IMG/VR virus record: IMGVR_UViG_3300045911_000113
Location: 1 to 55,470 of that record
DNA length: 55,470 nt
From: a virus
Direction: 5' to 3' (one strand)
Within the stretch, counting starts at the first letter, position 1, and every line of letters begins with the position of its first letter. Under the pieces are notes generated by a model that saw only the letters and a program-made list of their open reading frames with translations, was not told the DNA's origin and made no database searches. Made by a program: the position numbers and the translations under genes. Positions 148-50,472 of the stretch are shown here, in pieces.

Positions 148-2223
148 GGGGTCGGAGCTGACCATAAGTTTATTGAGTGTGCGAGCAATGCTGGTAATGT
201 TGGTCGGATCAATGAAATGTGCATCTTGACCATACATCTTACGAAACCCCACATGTTCCTCCTTGCTATGACCGATGTAATAACTCATTACCTGAATGCC
301 ACTGGCACGGAACTCCTGCATCATACGACGGGTGTGCGTGTATGCCGATTCGCCACGGTATGAGTAGTGACGACCCTTCCACTGAAATCCGTGAGCGGGC
401 TCACCGTCCGACAGATTGATGAAATACTTCTTAGCGCCCTTGCTCGTCTTGAGAATTTCTTCCTTGACGGCTTCAAAGCACAGCGCTTCCGGTGTTCCGC
501 CCGTCGCATCCAGGTATGGCACTACATCACGAACGCGCTGGAACTTGTGGCGCTTGCTGTCATAGATGATCGCCAGATGGGCGTGTGTCAAGTCACCGTC
601 ACGAACCGCAATCGTGCAATTCATTTTGCGATTCTTTTCCGCTGCGTAGGCAATAGCCACCGCAAGTGTCATCGCATTGCGGAACTTATCACCCGCCATC
701 GAACCGCTGAGATCGATATCAAGCCACACATCAACGGGTTGACGCTGTTCGGTAACAATATGATGGAACACCTTTTCGTTACCATATCCAAATCCCGAAA
801 TCAGTCGCTTATCAATACGCCCAGTTTCCTGACGGGTGAACTTCATAGGCGACTCGTCCTGCACCACGGAAATACGGGAGGCAAGAACCTGACCCATACG
901 AATGCCATCGGCAAGCGCACGCTCGGCATCGGGGTTGCGGTCACTATTGCGACCATAACTATGCGTATGGAATCGCATCGGGAACGAATTGCGTTGCACC
1001 GTCTGCTTGGTAACTTCCCGATAAATGATAATCGGACACTTGATGTCTCGGCCAAGAAAATTACCCTCAATCGCCTTGAACTCTGCCTTGGAATCCTCAA
1101 GCATCTGGAGATCTCGCATAATCCGATTTGGCAGCGTCTCCTTTTGTTCATTGAGCGCCGAGTGGTCAAGGAACTTACGCTGCTTGTTGAGCGCGTCGTC
1201 GAGTTCTTTACCGGACACGGGACGATATTCGACTTCACCGTCGCTGTTTTCGTTTGTCGGCGAAAAGTCCATATTCGGCATATCAGTAACAACCGTCTTG
1301 ACATTTTGCAACTTCATATCATCCGGCCGACCATTCTCACTTGTGACCGACTTGCTATTACGGACGATGATTTCCGCAATACGAAGCGCATCCGCAAACA
1401 ACAGAGGCAGATGATCGTGATTGACCGTGCCCAGACCAGCCCACCGACGCCATCCGAGATCCTCATCACCACGCGCAAACAAACCCTTGCGCGTGAAATT
1501 GATAATATCACGAATCTTGTCAAGATCTGGAAGTGCCGTAATATCGAAATGCTTGTTCGTCATATTGATAACGAACAATTCGTAATTACGAACGGATGGA
1601 TCGCGGAACTTGGGATCGCGCAGCGCATTATCAATCTCCGCACTGTGCCAGTATGCGTTATACAATGCTTGATAATACGGACGATACCCGCTCGCATTCT
1701 CGTACATCCACAGATCAATACGGCGATCTTCCATATAATTCATCATCATCTGAATGAGCTGATGAACATCTCGTTCGTTCATGCCGATCTTGGATGCATC
1801 CTCCAGAATCGTACTCTTGCCGACAAGATCACAGAAGTTCTTTTCCATCTTCGGAAGAAATGCCAACGACGCATTACTGAGAAGACAGTGCGAAGCTTCG
1901 TGCAGCGCCACACCGACCTGTACGTCAATTTTCAACGGATCAAGATCAGCGGAAATCACGACCTGCTTGCCGTCGGTGTAACTGAGCTGGCCACTTGAGA
2001 AAATCACGGGGATATTACGTCCCGTGACAATCTGAACGAAATTGCCGATGGCACGCTGCACGATGCGAAGCCGCCGCAAGTGTTCGGGCGAACCTATTTC
2101 GCACTGCGTCATCATTTCTTCGGCTTCATCGCCGAGCCAATAAACGCTGTGCTGTTCACGAGCCTTGGCAATCCGTTCTTGGATGCGCTTCTGAACGTAT
2201 GGATTCTGAATAGTAGTAGTCAT
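139..2223 (-). CDS. CobT-like von Willebrand A protein with an HExxH metallopeptidase-like motif
   Basis: 694 residues, ATG start. The C-terminal part carries a VWA domain with the MIDAS motif DIDLSGSMAG (about 502-511) and a downstream TGGTPE, as in CobT and other partners of MoxR/CobS ATPases. The N-terminal part holds ALHEASHCLL around 107-116, an HExxH zinc-protease signature (H108, E109, H112), followed by YMEDRRID near 163-170 as a possible third-ligand region. The CobS-like AAA+ gene lies 98 bp upstream, so the two probably form an ATPase-VWA chaperone or insertase pair. The charged linker (about 325-385) separates the two halves. Phage annotations often call this CobT, but cobalt chelation is not shown here; a protease or remodelling role is equally possible. 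Confidence 0.85.
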   Translation of the reverse strand: MTTTIQNPYVQKRIQERIAKAREQHSVYWLGDEAEEMMTQCEIGSPEHLRRLRIVQRAIGNFVQIVTGRNIPVIFSSGQLSYTDGKQVVISADLDPLKIDVQVGVALHEASHCLLSNASLAFLPKMEKNFCDLVGKSTILEDASKIGMNERDVHQLIQMMMNYMEDRRIDLWMYENASGYRPYYQALYNAYWHSAEIDNALRDPKFRDPSVRNYELFVINMTNKHFDITALPDLDKIRDIINFTRKGLFARGDEDLGWRRWAGLGTVNHDHLPLLFADALRIAEIIVRNSKSVTSENGRPDDMKLQNVKTVVTDMPNMDFSPTNENSDGEVEYRPVSGKELDDALNKQRKFLDHSALNEQKETLPNRIMRDLQMLEDSKAEFKAIEGNFLGRDIKCPIIIYREVTKQTVQRNSFPMRFHTHSYGRNSDRNPDAERALADGIRMGQVLASRISVVQDESPMKFTRQETGRIDKRLISGFGYGNEKVFHHIVTEQRQPVDVWLDIDLSGSMAGDKFRNAMTLAVAIAYAAEKNRKMNCTIAVRDGDLTHAHLAIIYDSKRHKFQRVRDVVPYLDATGGTPEALCFEAVKEEILKTSKGAKKYFINLSDGEPAHGFQWKGRHYSYRGESAYTHTRRMMQEFRASGIQVMSYYIGHSKEEHVGFRKMYGQDAHFIDPTNITSIARTLNKLMVSSDPLT

Positions 2224-2229
2224 ACTCTG

Positions 2230-2258
2230 AATCTAACGACTTGAATTGTAAAAATCAA
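2230..2258 (-). promoter_or_regulatory. Sigma70-like promoter of the VWA gene
   Basis: TTGATT (2258-2253) and TAGATT (2235-2230) on the minus strand are separated by 17 bp. The -10 lies 6 nt from the ATG of the VWA gene, which would give a leaderless or very short-leader mRNA if used as drawn. That closeness lowers confidence. Confidence 0.35.
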
Positions 2259-2321
2259 GTCTGGTTGTGTAACAAGTTTGTAACACCGAAATTACCGATT
2301 TTTGTATTTTTTCGTAATTGA

Positions 2322-3515
2322 TTATTCCCAGGGAAGGCTCTCGCCGTTTGGATCGTTCAGCGTGAACGGGCTCTTCACATCATCGAGACGAGTCGGCATG
2401 TGCTTCTGTACGATACTCTTGACGAATGTGCGTTCGCTATCCGTGCCGCCCGCATCGCTGAACGCGGGATACACCGTAACTTCCACTGCCTCGTCGAGCG
2501 TGAAACCATCATGCAACAGCTCGGCGATTTCGATGGTCATACGAGTGCTGACGATGTTGCTAACCTTGGGGTCATTCGACTTCGCATCGCGGCGAATATC
2601 ATTGGCGATATTGACCACCGCCTGAATCAGACGATCATTGACCTCAGGGAAACGTTCCTTGAGTAGATTGTATTCGTCGTCACGATTGAGCGGCTCCACT
2701 TCGATAACAGTGAAACGATCAATAAGTGCCGCGTCGAGCGTTCGCGTTGCCGTAAACGAGTGGCCGATGTTTGCCGTGGCGATAAATGTCACGCCGGGTG
2801 CCACTGCGATGGTCGGCGTATCGGGCGCTTCATCAATACGAAGGAAACGCTGCTTGTAGTCGAGCACGGGCATCAACAGGTTCCACGCATCGGGGTGAGC
2901 GCGAGTCAACTCGTCCAAAAGAACGATGGCATTTGGCGTCTTAATCGCATTTACGAAATACGATTCGGCCACGAACGTACCTTCGCCTTCCCGGAAATGC
3001 GTGTTACCAACAATCACGCTGCGGGGATCCTGTGTGGAACCGAGCGGAATATTGAAAATCGGACGATTGAGCACTTCGGAAAGTGTGAATGCGAGCACGG
3101 TCTTACCACAACCCTGCGGACCAGTAATCATCATATTCTTGCCACGAATTGCGGCGCGGATTGCAAATCGCCACTTGAGGTCGCTCATCTTGTACGATTG
3201 TGGCCGAATTGCGGCTGCGTTCGTGATGAACTTGACGATCTTGTTGTGATCCATTTCCAGATCATTGAAATTTCGGGTGGCATGATTCTTAGCCACTGCC
3301 TCATACTCGGCCATGCTGACCTTACGCCACTGCAAACCGTTCGCAGCTTCCGTGGCCTTGAGCGCCATATTTGCCTCGAATGCCCTGGCCATCTGATAAC
3401 TCTCGAACAGATCGGTCAAATCATCACCGTTCGTATTCATCGCATGATAACGGCTGCCATCCTTAGTGATCTTGACAATGGTTCCGACGAGATTCTTGTT
3501 TACGGTAGCGTTCAC
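2322..3515 (-). CDS. cobS: CobS/MoxR-type AAA+ ATPase
   Basis: 397 residues starting at GTG 3515, preceded by CCGAGGAATTACC, which places a good GAGG site before it. Walker A is GPQGCGKT (132-139), Walker B is IVLLDELTRA (D201, E202), and a sensor-like FIATANIGHS and an arginine-rich ALIDRFTV follow. This is the architecture of the CobS/MoxR branch of AAA+ ATPases, which act with VWA proteins to remodel or load metal into target enzymes. cobS homologues are common in T4-like cyanophages. The next gene encodes the VWA partner. A B12-dependent ribonucleotide reductase is encoded 43 kb away, so support of cobalamin supply is conceivable but is inference only. Confidence 0.88.
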   Translation of the reverse strand: MNATVNKNLVGTIVKITKDGSRYHAMNTNGDDLTDLFESYQMARAFEANMALKATEAANGLQWRKVSMAEYEAVAKNHATRNFNDLEMDHNKIVKFITNAAAIRPQSYKMSDLKWRFAIRAAIRGKNMMITGPQGCGKTVLAFTLSEVLNRPIFNIPLGSTQDPRSVIVGNTHFREGEGTFVAESYFVNAIKTPNAIVLLDELTRAHPDAWNLLMPVLDYKQRFLRIDEAPDTPTIAVAPGVTFIATANIGHSFTATRTLDAALIDRFTVIEVEPLNRDDEYNLLKERFPEVNDRLIQAVVNIANDIRRDAKSNDPKVSNIVSTRMTIEIAELLHDGFTLDEAVEVTVYPAFSDAGGTDSERTFVKSIVQKHMPTRLDDVKSPFTLNDPNGESLPWE

Positions 3516-3553
3516 GGTAATTCCTCGGTGGTTGGTCTTATGATTACAACTTA

Positions 3554-3582
3554 AAACTACTCAATAACAACGAAGAAGTCAA
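3554..3582 (-). promoter_or_regulatory. Sigma70-like promoter of the CobS-like gene
   Basis: TTGACT (3582-3577) and TAGTTT (3559-3554) on the minus strand are separated by 17 bp. It sits between the terminator at 3598-3624 and the GTG start at 3515, consistent with a new transcription unit. Confidence 0.5.
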
Positions 3583-3597
3583 TCCCCTATATGTAAC

Positions 3598-3624
3598 AAA
3601 AAAACCCGCTTTTAGGCGGGTTTT
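3598..3624 (-). terminator. Rho-independent terminator
   Basis: A 9-bp stem AAAACCCGC/GCGGGTTTT (3601-3609 with 3616-3624) encloses a 6-nt loop and is followed on the minus strand by a run of seven T. The stop codon of the 83-residue gene lies inside the loop. The structure could also work on the opposite strand. Confidence 0.88.
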
Positions 3625-3863
3625 GTTACAAATCGTTGAATTATATTATCTACTTGAATTTCTAATTGTTTTTGTTGAATTGGATCGTATACGCCGAAAC
3701 TTTCCCACGATGAAATCGTTTCATGTTCCATTCCCGGCGACCATTCTCGCGTTCCATCGGGTTTTACAACACACACAATCTTGCCATTTGATGCATATAA
3801 ATATGCACCGGTACGTTTCACATCCAATGTAGGCCACTCGGCGTGTTCATCATGCTCGTGCAT
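3612..3863 (-). CDS. Hypothetical 83-residue phage protein
   Basis: ATG at 3863, overlapping the end of the upstream gene by 14 bp, with GAG in the overlap as a weak ribosome binding site. The sequence is acidic at the N-terminus and includes WPTLDVKRTGAYLYASNG and REWSPGMEHETISSWE. No motif is recognised. Its stop lies inside the hairpin of the terminator, so it is the last gene of its transcription unit. Confidence 0.65.
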   Translation of the reverse strand: MHEHDEHAEWPTLDVKRTGAYLYASNGKIVCVVKPDGTREWSPGMEHETISSWESFGVYDPIQQKQLEIQVDNIIQRFVTKPA

Positions 3864-4317
3864 TTAACTCACTCAACGTATCGGGGTCATACATGTCATA
3901 TAATTGCTTTGCTAGACTTTTCGTTTCTCGAATCGCAAAGTTCATGTCTCGATAATTGACTACATGTGCTTGGTCGATACGTTTTGGTTTGAAGTCATGT
4001 TCACCCATAAAGTGGAATCCAATCCACCAACGGCGGATCGGCGGATTGAAAAAAAGATCTTCACTGGGTGCGATGCCCGCGAAACTTACACTATTATGAA
4101 CATCAACAAATTCAAATACGGTATGTGTTTTATTGGTCAAGTAAACAGGATGTTGTGGTGGAATACCTACAAAGGCACGCCAGGCACCACATTCGGGAAT
4201 TCGATGCATAACACAGGCAAATGATGTCGTTTCGTCTATCCAACGAACACAATCAGGTTCCTGTTGCCACGGTCCTGGTAGCCAATCCTCCTTGTCGTAT
4301 ATCTTCAGTTGGTACAT
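3850..4317 (-). CDS. Hypothetical protein of about 155 residues
   Basis: I chose the ATG at 4317 because GCGAGGAG lies 7 nt upstream; an earlier in-frame TTG at 4323 has worse spacing. The protein is rich in Trp, His and Pro (for example RRWWIGFHFMGEHDF). Its first 65 bp overlap the 3' end of the P-loop kinase gene in another frame, and its end overlaps the next gene, suggesting coupled translation. The family is not recognised. Confidence 0.65.
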   Translation of the reverse strand: MYQLKIYDKEDWLPGPWQQEPDCVRWIDETTSFACVMHRIPECGAWRAFVGIPPQHPVYLTNKTHTVFEFVDVHNSVSFAGIAPSEDLFFNPPIRRWWIGFHFMGEHDFKPKRIDQAHVVNYRDMNFAIRETKSLAKQLYDMYDPDTLSELNARA

Positions 4318-33166: not shown

Positions 33167-34522
33167 TTACCCTATTGTTTGTAGAATGTTGATAATCGTT
33201 GCCATCATATTAATTTCCTTGTTGACCACCTGCGCGTCGTATTTCTGACCCTCAGCAATGTGTAAAATTACTTGACTAATATTTCCTTTAGCGTAGGTAT
33301 CTACATTGGAGTATAAAAGACTATAAAATTCAGTAAAGTCACGAATACCAGCATCAGCGAACAGTTGACGAATTTCCGTGAATCGCTTCTTAGCATCGCC
33401 CTTCTGTCCAAGAAGTTCAATGACACGAAGTTTAATATCAGAAGCAACTACTTCCTCGGCATCAATTGACAATTTCCCGTCATTAACGGCCAACGAAGCT
33501 TCACCGATAATCTTACGAATATCGGGATAATAAGCATCTACGAGCAACTTGATGTCGTCCGGCTTATACGACACGCTTTCCTGTTTCAAGATACCAGCGA
33601 GGTGCTTGGCTACCTCAATCTTATTCGGCGGAACTACGTGGAACTGCTGAGTTCTGCTGATGATCGGGTCAATAATGCGTTCTACATAATTACAAGTCAA
33701 GATGAATCGGCACGACCGACTAAACGTTTCCATAACGTTACGAAGTGCTGCTTGTGCGTTCGGCGTCATATAATCACAATTATGAGTCAATGTTTGTGTC
33801 CGTCCAATAAAAAAGTTATGATTTCCTTGAACGGATAAATCATATACACGTCTTTGTACGTCGAGTTTTTTTATTTTCGTAATTTTGACAGTTTTTAATT
33901 CCACTTCTGGGGATAGTATGTGGGAATAAGCGTCCAATTCTGATGTTTTAACCACTAGTATCTCGCCTGTGTCTGATCGAACATACCATTTGTGATCCGC
34001 CGTACAGATTACGACCTCACCGTTCTCTAACTCAAGTTCATACACATCTTGTAAACCTTTATCAAATTTATCAAATTGTCTCCACTCAATTCGATTGTGG
34101 ACTGTATTCCACGATTTCACTAAATCCGTCAACGGATTTACATCTTTTATAGCCACTGCGGTTTCTGACCCCTCACGAAGTACCCACACCAATGTATTTT
34201 CGTCCAAACACTCATCTAAAATGATGACTTTGAGATCTGTAAACCCCACGGTCGAGGCAAATCCCCTTATCTTGTTTCGGACGGTATCTACATTGTTCTC
34301 ATCGGACGCATTGATATACAAGCTTTCACACTCAATGTTCTTGACAATAATCTTGGCCACTGTGGTCTTGCCTGTTCCTGGTGGTCCACTCAACAAGATG
34401 TGTGGAACATCACCCTCGGCAATAAACTTGCCAACCTTGGCCTTCATGCTATCGTTGCCGATGTAATTATCAAGTGTGGTAGGACGATATTTTTCTACCC
34501 ATATACTGTGTGTAGCGTTCAT
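33167..34522 (-). CDS. 44: Clamp loader large subunit gp44 with an in-frame intein
   Basis: 451 residues in the precursor. AAA+ motifs: Walker A SGPPGTGKTT (45-54), Walker B VIILDE (99-104), then an intein of 144 residues, then the host protein resumes as CDYMTPNAQAALRNVMETFS with the sensor I region FILTCNYVERI. Without the intein the mature protein is about 307 residues, close to T4 gp44 (319). gp44 with gp62 opens and loads the gp45 clamp using ATP. The intein interrupts the ATPase site directly after the catalytic DE, so the precursor must splice to be active. The ATG is preceded by TATAAATAATATG with only a weak ribosome binding site. Confidence 0.92.
   Translation of the reverse strand: MNATHSIWVEKYRPTTLDNYIGNDSMKAKVGKFIAEGDVPHILLSGPPGTGKTTVAKIIVKNIECESLYINASDENNVDTVRNKIRGFASTVGFTDLKVIILDECLDENTLVWVLREGSETAVAIKDVNPLTDLVKSWNTVHNRIEWRQFDKFDKGLQDVYELELENGEVVICTADHKWYVRSDTGEILVVKTSELDAYSHILSPEVELKTVKITKIKKLDVQRRVYDLSVQGNHNFFIGRTQTLTHNCDYMTPNAQAALRNVMETFSRSCRFILTCNYVERIIDPIISRTQQFHVVPPNKIEVAKHLAGILKQESVSYKPDDIKLLVDAYYPDIRKIIGEASLAVNDGKLSIDAEEVVASDIKLRVIELLGQKGDAKKRFTEIRQLFADAGIRDFTEFYSLLYSNVDTYAKGNISQVILHIAEGQKYDAQVVNKEINMMATIINILQTIG
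33779..34210 (-). mobile_element. Mini-intein in gp44 (residues 105-248)
   Basis: Starts CLDENTLVWV (C1), has the block B motif ICTADHKWY, and ends NHNFFIG then TLTHN before extein +1 Cys249. At 144 residues there is no room for an endonuclease domain. All canonical splicing residues (C1, TxxH, penultimate His, terminal Asn, +1 Cys) are present, so splicing should be active. Confidence 0.92.
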
Positions 34523-44457: not shown

Positions 44458-44778
44458 TCAGAATGTTAACATGTTGAGTTTCTTTTCAATAGCTTCTACC
44501 GTGGTATCACCGTAGATAAACTGCGATGCTCGACCATCACGATAGAATACTGTCATTGGTATGGCTTTGATTCGAGCACGTTCCTTAAACTGGAACAGTG
44601 TGACCTCAGTTTCGCCACCTAATTCAGCATTTCAACGTAATACACCAAACTGTTCATTGATGCCATCTACGGTCTGCTTTTCAATGCGTCTCATTGAACC
44701 TGAACGGTCAATGACTAATGCTACATACGTCTTTTTTTCGTTCTTCTTGACCTTCTTGGTCTTTTTTGTTGTAACCAT
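44458..44778 (-). pseudogene. Broken VWA-domain gene with in-frame TGA
   Basis: ATG 44778 has a perfect GGAGGAG site. The frame encodes a basic N-terminus, then KKTYVALVIDRSGSMRRIEK with MIDAS DRSGSM (24-29) and TVDGINEQFGVLR. Codon 49 (44634-44632) is TGA; the same frame continues with NAELGGETEVTLFQFKERAR and stops at 44458 after 106 codons. A full VWA domain needs about 180 residues and the TxxxDA region is missing, so the gene is both interrupted and truncated. TGA is an ordinary stop elsewhere in this window, so read-through is not assumed. Confidence 0.75.
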
Positions 44779-44996
44779 TATCGTACTCCTCCGTATGTGA
44801 AGCCTAATTTTTCAAGACTGTCATACGTGAAGCCTAATTTTTCAAGACTGTTTTGTTTTTTTGTTGTGGTAACTGTTATGGTTGTGGTGGTTTCTGGGAG
44901 GGGGACAAGTCCAATCCATCGTGGACGACACCAGTAACACGAATGACAGCATGAATTACAAGAGTGACAGCATGAATTACAAGAGTGACAGCACAT
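44778..44996 (-). CDS. Repeat-built Cys-rich small ORF
   Basis: 72 codons from ATG 44996, which has GGTGGAG 7 nt upstream. The N-terminus is a cysteine repeat (MCCHSCNSCCHSCNSCC), encoded by two perfect 21-bp tandem copies. The centre is Thr-rich. The C-terminus is two copies of SLEKLGFTY(D/G), encoded by two 30-bp tandem repeats. Its end resembles the end of the upstream gene (FDKLGMKPGGV versus EKLGFTYGGVR). The DNA in both cases supplies the next ribosome binding site. It may be a non-functional product of repeat expansion. Confidence 0.4.
   Translation of the reverse strand: MCCHSCNSCCHSCNSCCHSCYWCRPRWIGLVPLPETTTTITVTTTKKQNSLEKLGFTYDSLEKLGFTYGGVR
44791..44850. repeat. Two 30-bp tandem repeats
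   Basis: 44791-44820 and 44821-44850 are identical at 27 of 30 positions, sharing gtgaagcctaatttttcaag. They encode SLEKLGFTY twice on the minus strand. Confidence 0.9.
44951..44992. repeat. Two perfect 21-bp tandem repeats
   Basis: 44951-44971 and 44972-44992 are identical copies of a 21-bp unit starting atgaattacaagagtgacag. A partial unit precedes them at 44941-44950. They encode CHSCNSC-type repeats on the minus strand. Confidence 0.92.
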
Positions 44997-44997
44997 A

Positions 44998-45552
44998 TCA
45001 TACTCCACCGGGTTTCATACCCAGCTTATCGAAAATGTTTGTAGGTGTTGTCTGCGACACGGAGTTTGCGAGGGTGATTAATCCCGATACACCAAGACTT
45101 CTAACCATTGATGAAACTTGTGGTGATACCCAAATAGCATTTGCAGTGCCAAATGGGATGTTGGGATCTACTGATTCTACTTTGGCCGAGAATGAACCAG
45201 TAAGAGCACCTCCTGTGAGTACACAACTATAGTTTTGAGCTCTTGCAAGTACCACTAGGTCTTCTCTGGAAAGGCCGGTACGAGCACTGTTTTGATACAA
45301 TGTCGTACCGGAAATACCATCCACGCCTTTCCAGTTTGGGTTGTTTTCGCCAACGCGAGTTTTTAGTTGGCAACCACATGACGTAGAACGACCTTTGACC
45401 AATGAGTATACATCGGCACGTTTTACACTACCACATACACACTGTACATCCATTTGAGCAGGACTGTCGTAAATGACTCCATCCACTACAGTCCATGACC
45501 CAAATGTATCACCGGCTTTGAATTTTCCTACGTACTTTGGTTTTCTACCCAT
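44998..45552 (-). CDS. HNH-homing-endonuclease-like protein, catalytic residues eroded
   Basis: 184 residues, GGAGGTTAT before the ATG. The N-terminal half has a Cys-rich DNA-binding module seen in phage homing endonucleases: FGSWTVVDG, VQCVCGSVKRADVYSLVKGR and STSCGC. The C-terminal half NYSCVLTGGALTGSF...VESVDPNIPFGTANAIWVSP lines up with the HNH pattern C..tG..L....VDri....GY...N..wV, but the key His residues are absent. It is probably a decayed or DNA-binding-only derivative. The hairpin at 45561-45613 lies over its ribosome binding site. Confidence 0.6.
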   Translation of the reverse strand: MGRKPKYVGKFKAGDTFGSWTVVDGVIYDSPAQMDVQCVCGSVKRADVYSLVKGRSTSCGCQLKTRVGENNPNWKGVDGISGTTLYQNSARTGLSREDLVVLARAQNYSCVLTGGALTGSFSAKVESVDPNIPFGTANAIWVSPQVSSMVRSLGVSGLITLANSVSQTTPTNIFDKLGMKPGGV

Positions 45553-45560
45553 ATAACCTC

Positions 45561-45613
45561 CTGGCAGACATCTATAAGTAGTGTCGTTTTTCGTAAAACG
45601 CTTATTCTGCCAG
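45561..45613 (-). promoter_or_regulatory. RBS-adjacent hairpin with CTACTTATAG motif
   Basis: Arms CTGGCAGA/TCTGCCAG (45561-45568 with 45606-45613), with an inner CGTTTT/AAAACG hairpin (45585-45600). On the minus strand the 3' arm ends at CCAG directly followed by GAGG of the ribosome binding site. CACTACTTATAG (45583-45572) lies inside, so RNA started there would not fold this hairpin. Confidence 0.6.
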
Positions 45614-45633
45614 AAATCATTGTTCGAATTATC

Positions 45634-45821
45634 CTAGATTGTACAACCACCGGCCACACATGCAAGATTTTCTGCTAGAGCCGTATCATCCTCGGTTTCA
45701 ACAACCTTGGTGAGATCAAGTGTATGTAGGTGTGCAAATAGTTCTTCATATCGTTAGCAACATAAGTCTTCTTCGCCGTTGATTTCTTCGGCAACTTGAC
45801 CTTGATTTTCTTTACCGCCAT
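45634..45821 (-). pseudogene. Chimeric remnant: VWA-type N-terminus joined to an old NrdJ tail
   Basis: ATG 45821 with AAGAGG starts MAVKKIKVKLPKKSTAKKTY VA (read without gap), resembling the start of the broken VWA gene. At 45755 the sequence switches, out of frame, to an NrdJ C-terminal tail: the frame HLHTLDLTKVVETEDDTALA then ENLACVAGGCTI ending in TAG at 45634. The first 53 bp of this tail are identical to the active nrdJ tail at 46462-46514, the rest is diverged. As read from the ATG only 48 codons are open. Confidence 0.7.
45703..45755. repeat. 53-bp direct repeat, copy 1
   Basis: Identical to 46462-46514. Lies in the chimeric remnant and derives from the 3' end of nrdJ. Confidence 0.93.
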
Positions 45822-45830
45822 ATAAACCTC

Positions 45831-46388
45831 TTACTTTTGAAAGGTATGTTTGTAAACATCCATCACGGCTTGTAATCCGTTATCAGTGATGTCTCTTGTG
45901 CCTATGCCGGCAAAGTGTTTAGTTCTCAACTTCGGTATTCCTGTGAATATGGAGAACCTACCGTTGTGATGGTCATATTCATACCATGATTCTGTGGGCT
46001 GGTCGTAAAAGAATATCGGCTTTCCGTTATTTACGGCCATTTGAACGGCCCAACCTGTGCCACCATCAACGCGCGTGTATGTATCGTCGTAAAATTTACC
46101 AATGGCAAAGATAGTCTCTCCATTTTTCACTTGATACCAATTTCTACTGATTAAACACTTGGTATATCGTGGCGCGGATAGGAGATTTCGTTTGAATTGC
46201 ACATTCACATCTAATGCATGTGCCAATCCTTCATGTAATTCAGCATCTGATAAGATGACGGGATTTTTTCCATACTGTTTGTGACCAGAGAAAGAATAGG
46301 CGTATGTCACCACGCCGTATTCTTCTCCAGCAGTTTCCCATGCCATATCAGCGCCAGGACACCCGCCACTGTGACATACATAACCCAT
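45831..46388 (-). CDS. SLOG/DprA-like Rossmann protein
   Basis: 185 residues. The N-terminus HSGGCPGADMAWETAGEEYG is a glycine-rich nucleotide-binding loop like that of SLOG/LOG-type proteins; the sequence continues VVTYAYSFSGH, TIFAIGKFYDDT, VDGGTGWAVQMAV and KPIFFYDQ, giving a Rossmann order with a second GGTGW loop. SLOG domains bind nucleotide-derived ligands and occur in defence and anti-defence proteins. It sits between the nrdJ C-terminal gene and the chimeric remnant, so it may have arrived with the recombination that made that scar. Confidence 0.6.
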   Translation of the reverse strand: MGYVCHSGGCPGADMAWETAGEEYGVVTYAYSFSGHKQYGKNPVILSDAELHEGLAHALDVNVQFKRNLLSAPRYTKCLISRNWYQVKNGETIFAIGKFYDDTYTRVDGGTGWAVQMAVNNGKPIFFYDQPTESWYEYDHHNGRFSIFTGIPKLRTKHFAGIGTRDITDNGLQAVMDVYKHTFQK

Positions 46389-46389
46389 A

Positions 46390-47073
46390 TTAGACTATCT
46401 CACAAGCTCCACCGCTGCAAGCAACGGTTTGTTGTAGTTCAGTTTCATCTTCTGTTTCAATAACCTTGGTGAGATCAAGTGTATGTAGGTGTGCAAATAG
46501 TTCTTCATATCGTTCCTTGGTAATGTCTTGGAACGGCGCCTGGATATAAGTGTGGTCGTCGTGTGGTAATACACTCAATGCGGTGTAGTTCTCTCGATTC
46601 GCCCACATCCACTCAAATACATCCTGCCACTCATCCTTTTTAATAGATACTGTGGTGGATACGTTGTTAATGTTTGCACCCTTACGATGTCCTACCTTGA
46701 CCCATTCCTTCCACACCTTACCTACGCGCTCAAGGAGGTCAAGAGCAGATTCATTGCGGAGAATAGCACCGTCTGGCGCCTTTTGTGGTACACTGATTAC
46801 CGCAGTCTTGTGTGGAGCAAAGAAATCGTCTTCCAACAACTCTGGATGTGCTTGTTGGAGATATCCATACACAGCTTCATTCTTGCCAACGCGGATGGTA
46901 CGAACGTAGTAGTCGTTGTGCCATGCGTGAATACCCGAAGAACTGCCTACTACAAGTGAGGTGGTGTTATGCACGACCGCGCCGTTCTTTAGTTGATAGG
47001 TATGTGTTCCCGACACCTCAATATCTACAGTTATTTTTTTCTCGGGATTCTTTCTAATTGTTTTGATTCTCAT
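46390..47073 (-). CDS. nrdJ: NrdJ C-terminal fragment preceded by C-terminal split-intein half
   Basis: 227 residues, TGGAGAAAATAA before the ATG. Residues 1-36 are a C-intein ending GTHTYQLKNGAVVHN; residue 37 (Thr) is the +1 extein residue. The extein TTSLVVGSSSGIHAWHNDYY continues the class II ribonucleotide reductase barrel and ends with the redox cysteines VACSGGACEIV (C218, C223). It must be joined to the middle fragment at 47130-47924 by protein trans-splicing. The nearest upstream gene on the strand is that fragment, 56 bp away. Confidence 0.92.
   Translation of the reverse strand: MRIKTIRKNPEKKITVDIEVSGTHTYQLKNGAVVHNTTSLVVGSSSGIHAWHNDYYVRTIRVGKNEAVYGYLQQAHPELLEDDFFAPHKTAVISVPQKAPDGAILRNESALDLLERVGKVWKEWVKVGHRKGANINNVSTTVSIKKDEWQDVFEWMWANRENYTALSVLPHDDHTYIQAPFQDITKERYEELFAHLHTLDLTKVIETEDETELQQTVACSGGACEIV
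46462..46514. repeat. 53-bp direct repeat, copy 2
   Basis: Identical to 45703-45755. This copy is inside the functional nrdJ C-terminal gene, covering codons for YEELFAHLHTLDLTKV. Confidence 0.93.
46966..47073 (-). mobile_element. C-intein of NrdJ split intein 2
   Basis: 36 residues, MRIKTIRKNPEKKITVDIEV to AVVHN, with intein blocks F and G. The penultimate His and terminal Asn are present and the +1 residue is Thr. Pairs with the N-intein at 47133-47450; the split site is in the usual position. Confidence 0.9.
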
Positions 47074-47129
47074 TTATTTTCTCCAAAAGATATTGATGTG
47101 TTCCATCTTTGTTGGTAATATAATATTAC

Positions 47130-47924
47130 TCAGTAAGAAATTATTTCGTCGGTTTCCACCAACTCATCGGCACGAACCCAACCACGAGCAGTCAAGAATT
47201 TGTGATTTGGTGTTACCGATACTACCAACCCGTCTTCCATTTCAATATCCCAAACTTCAGATACACCATTGACATAAAGAGATATAATCTTTTGTTCTTG
47301 ATTGTTTTCATCCAAGACGGTAACATCTCTATCAAATGGAATAAACGTCTTTTCTTCAATTTGTGATGGATCAACACCAATCATATCAAACAAACTTTTC
47401 AATGTTACTGATCCGTTTGTTGTCTTCACTTCTGTTTCAGGCACCACGCAGCCTTCGGGCTTGACCGTAGTAGTACGAGCGGCTTTGTTGATACCCAACA
47501 TTTCAGCAACACGAGCATTTTCTTCCTTGACAATCTTTGCTGCTTCGGCAAGATTGAGATTCAACACTTCACCAGAAGCAATACCCGTCATAGATACACC
47601 GATCAATGCTTCCTTCTCAGTGGTCTTCTTCCAAATATCACGGAGATAGTGGAAATTCGTGTAAGTTGCCTGCAACGTACCAATAAACGAGGCAACACGA
47701 GCACGAAGGTTGAGGTCGTTTTGATCAACAATATCCGATGCATTAATTGTTGTCAAATTACAGAACTGATTGGGGCGAAGACTAATTTCTGCGCAATTGT
47801 GTACTAATAGTCCGTTTGCAAAGAAGTTATGATTTTTTCTTATGGTCAAGTCATAAACATCTTCATTTTCCCTGATTGTCTTTTTTACGATTCTAGATTT
47901 AACAATCTGTTTTGCTTCCACCAT
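47130..47924 (-). CDS. nrdJ: NrdJ middle fragment flanked by two split-intein halves
   Basis: 264 residues. Residues 1-43 form a C-intein ending KNHNFFANGLLVHN. The extein (44-158) begins CAEISLRPNQFCNLTT, whose first Cys is the predicted thiyl-radical cysteine of the reductase, and ends ARTTTVKPEG. Residues 159-264 form an N-intein starting CVVPETEVKT. The protein therefore needs two trans-splicing reactions, one at each end. The start overlaps the end of the upstream endonuclease gene by 40 bp. Confidence 0.93.
   Translation of the reverse strand: MVEAKQIVKSRIVKKTIRENEDVYDLTIRKNHNFFANGLLVHNCAEISLRPNQFCNLTTINASDIVDQNDLNLRARVASFIGTLQATYTNFHYLRDIWKKTTEKEALIGVSMTGIASGEVLNLNLAEAAKIVKEENARVAEMLGINKAARTTTVKPEGCVVPETEVKTTNGSVTLKSLFDMIGVDPSQIEEKTFIPFDRDVTVLDENNQEQKIISLYVNGVSEVWDIEMEDGLVVSVTPNHKFLTARGWVRADELVETDEIISY
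47133..47450 (-). mobile_element. N-intein of NrdJ split intein 2
   Basis: 106 residues from C159, CVVPETEVKTTNGSVTLKSL onward, with block B VTPNHKFLT and ending in ADELVETDEIISY, a normal end for a naturally split N-intein. Inserted after KPEG, before the TTS that helps bind substrate phosphate. Confidence 0.9.
47796..47924 (-). mobile_element. C-intein of NrdJ split intein 1
   Basis: 43 residues starting MVEAKQIVKSRIVKKTIREN and ending LLVHN, strongly like C-inteins of the known NrdJ/gp41 split intein group. +1 residue is Cys. Pairs with the N-intein at 48760-49110. Confidence 0.92.
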
Positions 47925-48694
47925 TTTAATTCCCCCAAGTATGTATTTCCATCCAAAAACGGAGTAATGTTATCTATTAAACAAAACTCAACGTTTTTTA
48001 AAGATGGGTCTTTTTTAAGTTCTTCAAACTTCCACACCCTATTTTTGAAATATCCCTTGACTTCTATTATCTTTACAAGTTTTCCGGCTTCATATATAAA
48101 AAAATCAGGTCTATATGATTCTGCCCCTAACATCCATTGTTGAGATTCTACATCCCAATCAAATTTATTTTTATCTAACCATTTGGCTAGAATATATTCA
48201 TATGTTGACCGAAGCCATACATATTTTTGTCTTGATTTGTTAAAGAAGTAACCTGTAACCCCACGTTCTGTGTTCTTATTCTTGGTTCGTCTGTTTCTCC
48301 AACCGCCAGATTTTATTGCATTTTCACTTCTAACTCGTTTTAGATTTTCTGTAACAACATTATATCCTTTACGAATTGGTATGTTTATATATTCTAGGAG
48401 CCTACGCATTTTTGTGTAGCTAATGTTTAGTTCTCTTGCCATTAACTTTAATCCAACTCCGTCATGTTCATACTTTTGGCGCACCGATGATACAAAATAA
48501 TTCCACTCATCTGCATAAACTTCTTGGAGTTTTTTTCTAATAAAGGTTTTCTTTACAAACCCTCTAGCTCCGTTTCCATACAATTTATACTGCTCTTTAA
48601 AAAATTCTCGGTATTCTGTTTGCCACTCGTTACGAATGTCACGATACCCATCCAACTCTATAAACTTACGATATAAGGTATTCAAGTCTAACAT
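47885..48694 (-). CDS. Free-standing PD-(D/E)XK putative homing endonuclease between split-intein halves
   Basis: 269 residues from ATG 48694; an upstream TTG frame runs through the hairpin and is unlikely. A helical N-terminal part (helix-turn-helix-like, ARELNISYTKMRRLLEYINI) is followed by a segment GVTGYFFNKSRQKYVWLRST, YEYILAKWLDKNKFDW and the nuclease core YRPDFFIYEAGKLVKIIEVKGYF (PD...ExK). The gene lies exactly between the N- and C-intein halves of NrdJ split intein 1, the place expected for the element that fractured the gene. The protein at 54723-55470 has the same layout. Confidence 0.78.
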   Translation of the reverse strand: MLDLNTLYRKFIELDGYRDIRNEWQTEYREFFKEQYKLYGNGARGFVKKTFIRKKLQEVYADEWNYFVSSVRQKYEHDGVGLKLMARELNISYTKMRRLLEYINIPIRKGYNVVTENLKRVRSENAIKSGGWRNRRTKNKNTERGVTGYFFNKSRQKYVWLRSTYEYILAKWLDKNKFDWDVESQQWMLGAESYRPDFFIYEAGKLVKIIEVKGYFKNRVWKFEELKKDPSLKNVEFCLIDNITPFLDGNTYLGELKWWKQNRLLNLES

Positions 48695-48698
48695 AGGG

Positions 48699-48744
48699 TT
48701 CCCCGCAATAGGTTCTACATATAAATAGTGTCTATTGTGGGGAA
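48699..48744 (-). promoter_or_regulatory. Hairpin with CTATTTATA motif over the endonuclease RBS
   Basis: Stem TTCCCCGCAATAG/CTATTGTGGGGAA (48699-48711 with 48732-48744), 13 bp with one G-U pair. The minus-strand 3' arm contains the GCGGGGAA ribosome binding site of ATG 48694. The loop holds ACACTATTTATATG, so transcription started there would leave the site free. Confidence 0.65.
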
Positions 48745-48756
48745 ACAACCCATATG

Positions 48757-50472
48757 TTATTTAATATTCACCAAAATATCTTCTTCGGTCAATTGAGCGG
48801 CCTCCACCCAACCACGATTTTCAGTAAATACCTTGTGGTCCGGAGTTAGCTTTAGAGTCTCACCAGTATCAAGGGTCAATTCAATAATTGATGTCTTTTC
48901 GCGGGTAAGAGCAGCATTATCCAACACATCCCACTCCAACTGCTTTAGCTCTGTATTATACGAAAGCACCATTGGTGGTAATGTAGTGGTTTCGTAGAGT
49001 TCTACGAGCTGTTTAAGTGGAATCTGATATACTCCGCCTTCTGCGACAACTTCACCGTCGGAGATGATATCGTGATCTCTGACTGTAATGAGAGCATCTC
49101 CGGTAATGCATGGGTTGAGTCCCCATTCCTTGTCATTCGTCATAAAGAAGCCAGGTTCACCAGAACCCGATGCTTCAATCTTCTTCCATAGATCATAGAA
49201 GGTTTCCTTATCAATCTTGTGACGAAGAATGGTGGCGCTATTATTAGCACGTTGTCTCTGTGGATTCAATTCCCAGAAATTACCAAACTTACAAGTCAAC
49301 ATTTCTTCATCATCAAGATCGAATAGACTGATCATTGCGGAACGACGAATACCACCAGCTAATACCGCATCAGCAATATAACAGTTGATGTCATGTACAT
49401 CAATTGGCTCTAGTTGTTCGCCGTCTTCCTTACGTTCAAAAATCTTCTTGATGTTGTGTAACGCATCATTGAGAGGTTCTGGTCCCGGTGCCTTACCGCC
49501 AGAAGTGATAAGCTTTGCACCTTTGGGACGTATATCACGAAAATCAAAATCAGGTATAGGCTTGCCTTCAAAATAGGCACGAACAAGTACCTTTACTGCG
49601 TCTGACCATCCTTCAATACTATCTCCTACAACAAATCGACGAGTCTTCTTATTCTTACGAATAGCTGGTAGCTGTTCAATGTGATGACGCTGAACTGAAT
49701 ATCCTACTCCCACACCAGATAACAACAAGAACATGAGTTCGGAAAATGATGCGGGGTGGTTCATTGGCAAAAATGAACAGTTCCCTGTAACTTCCCCCGT
49801 TGCCAATACAAAGCTGCGATCATCTTCAACTTCTAAACACCACACCGGTTCCTTTCCAGATGGTACGATACTCTTGACAACAAAGCTCATATTCGTTTCA
49901 GGAGTAGATTCTTCATAGATAAATTGATCAAAGATTACCGGTGCAGATGCTAACTTATCTCCAACTTTTAGTGAAGTAGTTTCTGTTCCGTCCTTAAGAA
50001 TCCACCGATGATTCGATGTGGCTCTGGTCACATGTGAATGTCGTCCCCGAATAATCGTAATATCATACAACTCATCAACACCGTAGTTTCGTACTGTGGC
50101 CTTCTTCCAATTACCTTTGTGGGTAAGAACGTATGTGGTATCACCATCTGTAAAATCATTAAAAGATTTTACACCATCTCTCGTAACGAAACGGGTATCG
50201 GCGCTTAGACAATTGTAAATTCTAGCAGGGTTTAACTCAATCGGCTTTCCAGCAAATTGTAACGAACGCATAGACGGCAAAACCTTACGTTCAAAAACTA
50301 ATTTGTAAGCTTCACGAATTTCCTGTTCAAGTGCAGGAAATTTCTTGATGTGCATATCCATATTACGTGTGACTACTTCATCCCATGTCTCACGACGTTG
50401 GAGTTCTGGAATGAACTTGGCATATTTCATATGCACCGTGAGATCTGACAAAATTTGGGTGCTAAGTTCCAT
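48757..50472 (-). CDS. nrdJ: NrdJ N-terminal fragment with a cis intein and a terminal N-intein
   Basis: 571 residues. Extein 1-87 ends NPARIYN; a complete intein (88-231) follows; the extein resumes CSFLPMNHPASFSELMFLLL, through VLAGGIRRSAMISLFDLDD, to WGLNP at 454; residues 455-571 are an N-intein. This is the N-terminal part of the B12-dependent class II ribonucleotide reductase. After cis splicing here and two trans-splicing steps with the fragments at 47130-47924 and 46390-47073, the mature enzyme would have about 616 residues (87+223+115+191). It reduces ribonucleoside di- or triphosphates to deoxy forms using adenosylcobalamin. Confidence 0.94.
   Translation of the reverse strand: MELSTQILSDLTVHMKYAKFIPELQRRETWDEVVTRNMDMHIKKFPALEQEIREAYKLVFERKVLPSMRSLQFAGKPIELNPARIYNCLSADTRFVTRDGVKSFNDFTDGDTTYVLTHKGNWKKATVRNYGVDELYDITIIRGRHSHVTRATSNHRWILKDGTETTSLKVGDKLASAPVIFDQFIYEESTPETNMSFVVKSIVPSGKEPVWCLEVEDDRSFVLATGEVTGNCSFLPMNHPASFSELMFLLLSGVGVGYSVQRHHIEQLPAIRKNKKTRRFVVGDSIEGWSDAVKVLVRAYFEGKPIPDFDFRDIRPKGAKLITSGGKAPGPEPLNDALHNIKKIFERKEDGEQLEPIDVHDINCYIADAVLAGGIRRSAMISLFDLDDEEMLTCKFGNFWELNPQRQRANNSATILRHKIDKETFYDLWKKIEASGSGEPGFFMTNDKEWGLNPCITGDALITVRDHDIISDGEVVAEGGVYQIPLKQLVELYETTTLPPMVLSYNTELKQLEWDVLDNAALTREKTSIIELTLDTGETLKLTPDHKVFTENRGWVEAAQLTEEDILVNIK
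48760..49110 (-). mobile_element. N-intein of NrdJ split intein 1
   Basis: 117 residues from C455 (CITGDALITVRDHD) with block B LTPDHKVFTENRGWV and end LTEEDILVNIK. Inserted between Pro and the radical Cys of the NPC motif. Confidence 0.92.
49780..50211 (-). mobile_element. Cis mini-intein in NrdJ (residues 88-231)
   Basis: 144 residues, CLSADTRFVTRDGVKSFNDF to FVLATGEVTGN, with block B RATSNHRWIL. The penultimate residue is Gly rather than His (TGN then +1 Cys), a known but less common variant. It sits before the cysteine of RIYNCSF, predicted to be one of the redox-active pair. Confidence 0.9.

Follow-up and report, generated by a model that had tools for sequence, protein, structure and literature searches.

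The nrdJ locus and its predicted product

The 55,470-base viral record IMG/VR IMGVR_UViG_3300045911_000113, analysed over its whole length and hereafter called the window, carries on its minus strand (50472-46390) a class II ribonucleotide reductase (RNR) gene, nrdJ, which is broken into three genes by two split inteins and encloses a complete cis intein in its first piece. We consider it highly probable that three different intein families have entered a phage class II RNR gene, each at its own active-site position, and that the three resulting pieces are spliced into an enzyme of 616 amino acids (aa). The features of the locus are the following (nt, nucleotides; ORF, open reading frame):

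50472-48757, minus strand: gene 1 (571 aa), with extein 1, cis intein, extein 2 and the N-half of split intein 1
50212-50472, minus strand: extein 1 (gene 1 residues 1-87)
49780-50211, minus strand: cis mini-intein of 144 aa (gene 1 residues 88-231), at site 0, YN^C
49111-49779, minus strand: extein 2 (gene 1 residues 232-454)
48760-49110, minus strand: N-half of split intein 1 (117 aa, net charge -13), NrdJ-1 family, site NP^C
48689-48759, minus strand: predicted RNA hairpin over the ribosome site and start codon of the endonuclease gene (z-score -5.7)
47885-48694, minus strand: free-standing putative endonuclease gene inside split intein 1, motif YRPDFF...EVKGY
47924-47130, minus strand: gene 2, the middle fragment (264 aa), with the C-half of intein 1, extein 3 and the N-half of intein 2
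47796-47924, minus strand: C-half of split intein 1 (5' part of gene 2)
47451-47795, minus strand: extein 3 (gene 2 residues 44-158)
47133-47450, minus strand: N-half of split intein 2 (3' part of gene 2)
47074-47129, minus strand: spacer of 56 nt between the halves of split intein 2, with ribosome site GGAG, endonuclease-free
47073-46390, minus strand: gene 3 (227 aa), with the C-half of intein 2 and extein 4
46966-47073, minus strand: C-half of split intein 2 (net charge +4; 5' part of gene 3)
46393-46965, minus strand: extein 4 (gene 3 residues 37-227), with the C-terminal CSGGAC redox pair
45637-45753, minus strand: duplicate of the last 39 nrdJ codons, downstream of a DprA-like ORF

The coordinates, junctions and lengths given in the initial annotation of this DNA were correct: the joined exteins (1-87, 232-454, 44-158 and 37-227 of the successive genes) amount to 616 aa, and the ORF translations read ...WGLNP/C...VHN/CAEISL at junction 1 and ...TVKPEG/C...VHN/TTSLVV at junction 2. 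The three genes do carry successive parts of NrdJ, as that annotation described, but they are not consecutive, because an endonuclease gene that it had overlooked (stop at 47885, probable start ATG at 48694, an upstream TTG at 48748 being less likely) separates genes 1 and 2 and overlaps the latter. Likewise, both split inteins possess Cys1, the TxxH block (TPDH, TPNH and TSNH among the inteins), the +1 nucleophile (Cys or Thr) and the terminal His-Asn of VHN, whereas the cis intein, located as described before CSFLPM, ends in Gly-Asn and not in His-Asn. A single sequencing error or frameshift was considered as the origin of the junction 2 split and rejected: the halves lie in different frames, a TGA and a 56-nt stretch containing a ribosome site stand between them, and all frames are closed. 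The same split is present in L081, a near-identical locus.

Alignment of the joined exteins upheld the proposed product, which is colinear and gapless over residues 1-616 with intact viral NrdJs (up to 72%, L001 and L002) and which phage records match in one piece over residues 1-615 (63% to Microcystis phage Mel-JY01). Comparison with the PDB retrieved the Lactobacillus leichmannii reductase 1L1L (E 1e-36), whose residues C119, C408, E410, C419, C731 and C736 are all conserved in the aligned window protein, including those with defined roles in RTPR (thiyl Cys408, redox pair C119/C419 and C-terminal pair C731/C736). On this alignment, site 0 falls directly before C119, site 1 directly before C408 and site 2 in the KPxG^TT loop. 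The protein is thus assigned to class II RNRs, with a predicted adenosylcobalamin-dependent activity. The exteins differ from those of L081 by about 26 synonymous and 6 non-synonymous changes, which indicates purifying selection. Within the 55,470-base record, which may be incomplete, we found no second or intact nrdJ, just the 39-codon duplicate of its 3' end.

Both split inteins were recognised by the Pfam, NCBIfam and PDB comparisons, and the reductase by NCBIfam and PDB; PF02867 had no match in the record, which in view of the two other comparisons is not evidence of absence. A genome collection gave weak matches only, limited to short stretches of the query. Against the RTPR family model TIGR02505 (cut-off 340 bits), the fragments score 122.7, 46.0 and 46.3 bits; as every fragment falls under the cut-off, annotation by cut-off would miss such an RNR, and RNRs of this kind have probably been overlooked in viral annotation.

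Intein families and the endonuclease gene

The comparison suggested with the initial annotation confirmed that split intein 1 is homologous to NrdJ-1, an intein of known structure (8UBS, E 3.5e-24). Among dereplicated loci, the site-1 family is inserted in either of two registers, NP^C and NPC^C/S, which differ by one codon and are both common. No close relative of split intein 1 was found in the phage collection. The NCBIfam model NF006207, which describes an intein-bearing B12-dependent RNR, aligns across the boundary between the intein 1 C-half and the extein, so that a cellular cis intein near site 1 has probably been recorded before.

Intein 2 belongs to a family distinct from that of intein 1: in a tree of N-halves (built without support values) the site-2 halves all cluster, separate from those of site 1, and the N-halves of the two window inteins are 33% identical over 43 alignable residues. 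The cis intein represents a third family, whose YN^C relatives in other NrdJs carry a long insert at the endonuclease position and end in TGN. Net charges of the N- and C-halves are -13/+3 for split intein 1 and -13/+4 for split intein 2, whereas the corresponding parts of the cis intein have -1/-3.

The ORF inside junction 1 probably encodes a PD-(D/E)xK-type endonuclease, an assignment made mainly on a conserved motif (Y-x-P-D-F...E-x-K-G, invariant in its relatives), and DNA cleavage by its product is predicted. Its PHROGs matches are phage endonucleases and Holliday resolvases; structural matches among viral proteins are weak, with low TM (template modelling) scores, the better ones being partly nucleases. 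The phage collection contains no relative of this endonuclease, and no Vsr match was obtained for it, its motif being PD-(D/E)xK-like, while L232 shows a weak Vsr match. Between the window and L084, the ratio of non-synonymous to synonymous substitution rates (dN/dS) is 0.08-0.13, which points to purifying selection on the endonuclease. In the window and in two relatives (z-scores of -6.9 in L084 and -4.2 in L085), the ribosome site and start codon of this gene are base-paired in a strong predicted hairpin, which suggests that translation of the endonuclease from the nrdJ message is repressed.

The site-2 endonucleases of L103, L307, L317, L082 and L188 belong to different families (GIY-YIG/SegE, HNH-like and REase-like MTES_1575); the endonuclease thus seems exchangeable while the intein family stays. 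In L083, a 72-aa ORF (3676-3891) with a TnpB/Cas12f-like zinc ribbon (PF07282, E 4.7e-11) separates the two halves of a third split intein; a TnpB-type nuclease may thus once have occupied the usual position of the homing endonuclease.

Recurrence, mobility and probable healing

Recurrence was assessed by profile scans of fetched loci, aimed at intein carriers and including some truncated contigs, which therefore give no estimate of frequency. RNR genes with at least two split inteins were found in about 14 contig groups, including the window. These comprise NrdJ loci (the window, L082, L083, L188, L103, L122, L307, L314, L315 and L317, with four pieces in L083 and L122), dimeric-type NrdJ (L275, L232 and L240) and a class I NrdA-like gene (L176). 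On the extein tree, the multi-split NrdJ loci occur at scattered positions between intact genes. In L176, the NrdA-like gene (467-3506) is divided by split inteins into three or more pieces, the first of which starts inside an intein.

Mobility of a cassette into empty alleles is directly seen at site 2 of L082, with another endonuclease. L082 is 98.3-99.6% identical to L109 and L111 in matching stretches, and site 2 is occupied in L082 and empty in the two others. Where L109 has AAA CCC TCA GGC ACA TCT TCT, L082 has AAA CCC AGT GGG before and ACC TCC TCT after a cassette of about 1.6 kb; the whole N-half/endonuclease/C-half cassette has been inserted precisely, and the short changes on both flanks look like co-conversion. 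At site 1 of the same pair, the endonuclease gene is full-length in L109 and has lost about 0.55 kb internally in L082. For the site-1 cassette of the window, mobility is indicated by divergence: compared with L084, the exteins are 63-70% identical in nucleotides with saturated synonymous divergence (dS), whereas the site-1 halves and endonuclease retain 75-87%, which shows that the far less diverged cassette moved as one block.

The comparison with L081 points to the reverse process. L081 is 98.5% identical to window positions 52000-48775 and 47933-45635, two stretches that are adjacent in L081; the 841 bp that it lacks correspond to the endonuclease gene and its surroundings. Its frame is continuous, so that intein 1 is uninterrupted within a single gene of 834 aa, and site 2 is split in both loci. 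A clean difference of one 841-bp segment could also arise if the cis intein of L081 were ancestral and the window endonuclease recently inserted. We regard this direction as rather unlikely, since L084-L087 have this endonuclease gene in an identical position, where it likewise overlaps the C-half, and since the L081 linker (GGA GTT AAA GTG GTG GAA, against GGA ATT AAA ATG GTG GAA in the window) looks like a relic of the ribosome site and start codon of gene 2, the ATG now being GTG. The site-1 split is thus most likely ancestral and reverted to cis in L081. In L209, whose relatives are split, site 1 holds what looks like a second cis intein, of independent origin.

Other features were noted in the window and in its relatives. 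An HNH-endonuclease-like ORF (phrog_374; 44486-45634, minus strand) lies in a segment absent from L081, a second difference in endonuclease presence between the two loci. The 39-codon duplicate of the nrdJ end follows the DprA-like ORF (region 45637-46388, minus strand), as if a cassette had replaced the 3' end of the gene; similar duplicated ends occur in L110 and L315, in the latter behind a GIY-YIG gene. At the contig end (53485-55469, minus strand), a second fractured gene, RecA/UvsX-like, starts with most of an intein (a long C-part, an atypical split); a PD-(D/E)xK-like endonuclease gene (weak PF05367 match) lies upstream, and the intein N-part is off the contig. A clamp-loader ATPase gene (33170-34522, minus strand) has a further cis mini-intein, bringing the record to at least five inteins. 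In L084, a helicase-like gene (2665-3834) next to nrdJ begins inside an intein, with a long C-part and an atypical split.

Proposed maturation, alternatives and known systems

In the proposed maturation, the three polypeptides would associate through their N-halves (net charge -13) and C-halves (+3 and +4), and two trans-splicing reactions and one cis-splicing reaction would yield the 616-residue enzyme. The same three events had been put forward initially and remain the best-fitting explanation of the gapless product, the intact motifs and the relatives with empty, cis and split sites. The middle fragment, with a C-half first and an N-half last, has the topology used for protein cyclisation in the laboratory, and a cross-reaction could trap it as a ring; inteins 1 and 2 must therefore not cross-react. 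Their separate families are consistent with such orthogonality without proving it. The N-half/endonuclease/C-half cassette would home as one unit into empty RNR alleles; once the endonuclease had decayed, the halves would either stay split without it, as at window site 2, or fuse again into a cis intein, as at site 1 of L081. More generally, we find it fairly probable that phage split inteins are a self-contained mobile class that homes pre-split and cycles through sites that are empty, broken with an endonuclease, broken without it and re-fused, and that repeated invasions by position-specialised families produced RNRs whose middle fragment has the cyclisation topology and whose maturation needs two or three mutually orthogonal trans-splicing reactions.

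Several points weigh against the splicing model. The splicing that it assumes is a prediction from sequence, and every locus compared is a metagenome assembly. The AlphaFold model of the endonuclease is of moderate quality (predicted local distance difference test, pLDDT, of 73), and a Foldseek search of it against the PDB gave no match under E 0.001. The cis intein has Gly in place of the penultimate His; this TGN end is typical of its family. Site 1 has a proline at position -1, with which its homologue NrdJ-1 loses splicing fidelity (PMC13123727); inteins of the NP^C group must consequently be adapted to this residue or splice poorly, and adaptation is likely because about 20 locus groups share this register.

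The reliance on metagenomic contigs could suggest that chimeric assembly or frameshifts made the breaks. This possibility is practically negligible, as the split with its endonuclease at site 1 recurs in many independent contigs (four with a 77-80% identical endonuclease), the site-2 split occurs in L081 and also in unrelated loci, and the halves lie in different frames, each with its own ribosome site. The heavy fragmentation of nrdJ might also denote a decaying pseudogene, NrdJ being dispensable to the phage and the inteins dead. We hold this to be very unlikely in view of the purifying selection on the exteins, the retention of all catalytic residues, the identity of the intein 2 C-half between the window and L081, and the open frame kept by the re-fused L081 gene. 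Finally, the pieces could act unspliced as a non-covalent multi-chain enzyme, as in Aeh1; a phage NrdA that is divided by mobE has been described as working unspliced (PMC3653736, PMC10448857). For the window this is highly improbable: each break bears complete intein halves, both N- and C-halves being conserved across diverged loci, and unspliced residues would sit directly before C119 and C408.

If the splicing model is true, natural proteins are assembled from three to four separately made pieces, and within a single enzyme several split inteins function alongside each other. The loci would then offer candidate mutually orthogonal split-intein pairs for protein engineering, including a large family obliged to splice after proline, and the near-identical pairs (window/L081 and L082/L109) make gene breaking and healing directly testable.

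Fractured genes, phage enzyme genes interrupted by a split intein whose halves flank a free-standing endonuclease gene, were reportedly described by Dassa and colleagues in 2009 (NAR 37:2560), and a Vsr-like endonuclease is said to occur in about half of the published loci. The split-intein break of a conserved enzyme gene is found at both window junctions, and the endonuclease between the halves at junction 1 only, junction 2 having its 56-nt spacer. Unlike fractured genes (Dassa 2009), the window gene has two split inteins plus a cis intein, and its relatives have up to three split inteins. Two nrdJ cases interrupted by inteins were reported among fractured genes, as cited in PMC3653736. The initial annotation knew of no comparable case; indeed, we found no report of a natural gene with two split inteins in the openly readable literature, which does not extend to Dassa 2009, and we claim no priority, but about a dozen other viral contig groups have two or three split inteins in an RNR.

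NrdJ-1 (8UBS; PMC13123727) shares with window site 1 the gene, the neighbouring active-site Cys and a homologous intein; it is inserted at NPC^SEI (+1 Ser), whereas window intein 1 lies one codon upstream, at NP^CAEI (+1 Cys, -1 Pro). The Aeh1 NrdA gene is likewise a phage RNR gene broken by a homing endonuclease; its product is functional without a self-splicing element and its pieces stay separate (PMC3653736), whereas the window pieces end in intein halves and are predicted to splice. Phage MIJ3 has a split PolB with an HNH endonuclease. In crAss-like, Jug and Brochothrix phages, single genes also occur in several fragments, RNR genes included, but there the cuts are mainly group I introns or cis inteins, in contrast to the two split inteins in the window gene. 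Lastly, the window protein has in common with the monomeric class II RNRs (RTPR; 1L1L, TIGR02505) its sequence family and catalytic residues, and differs from them in being encoded in three pieces.

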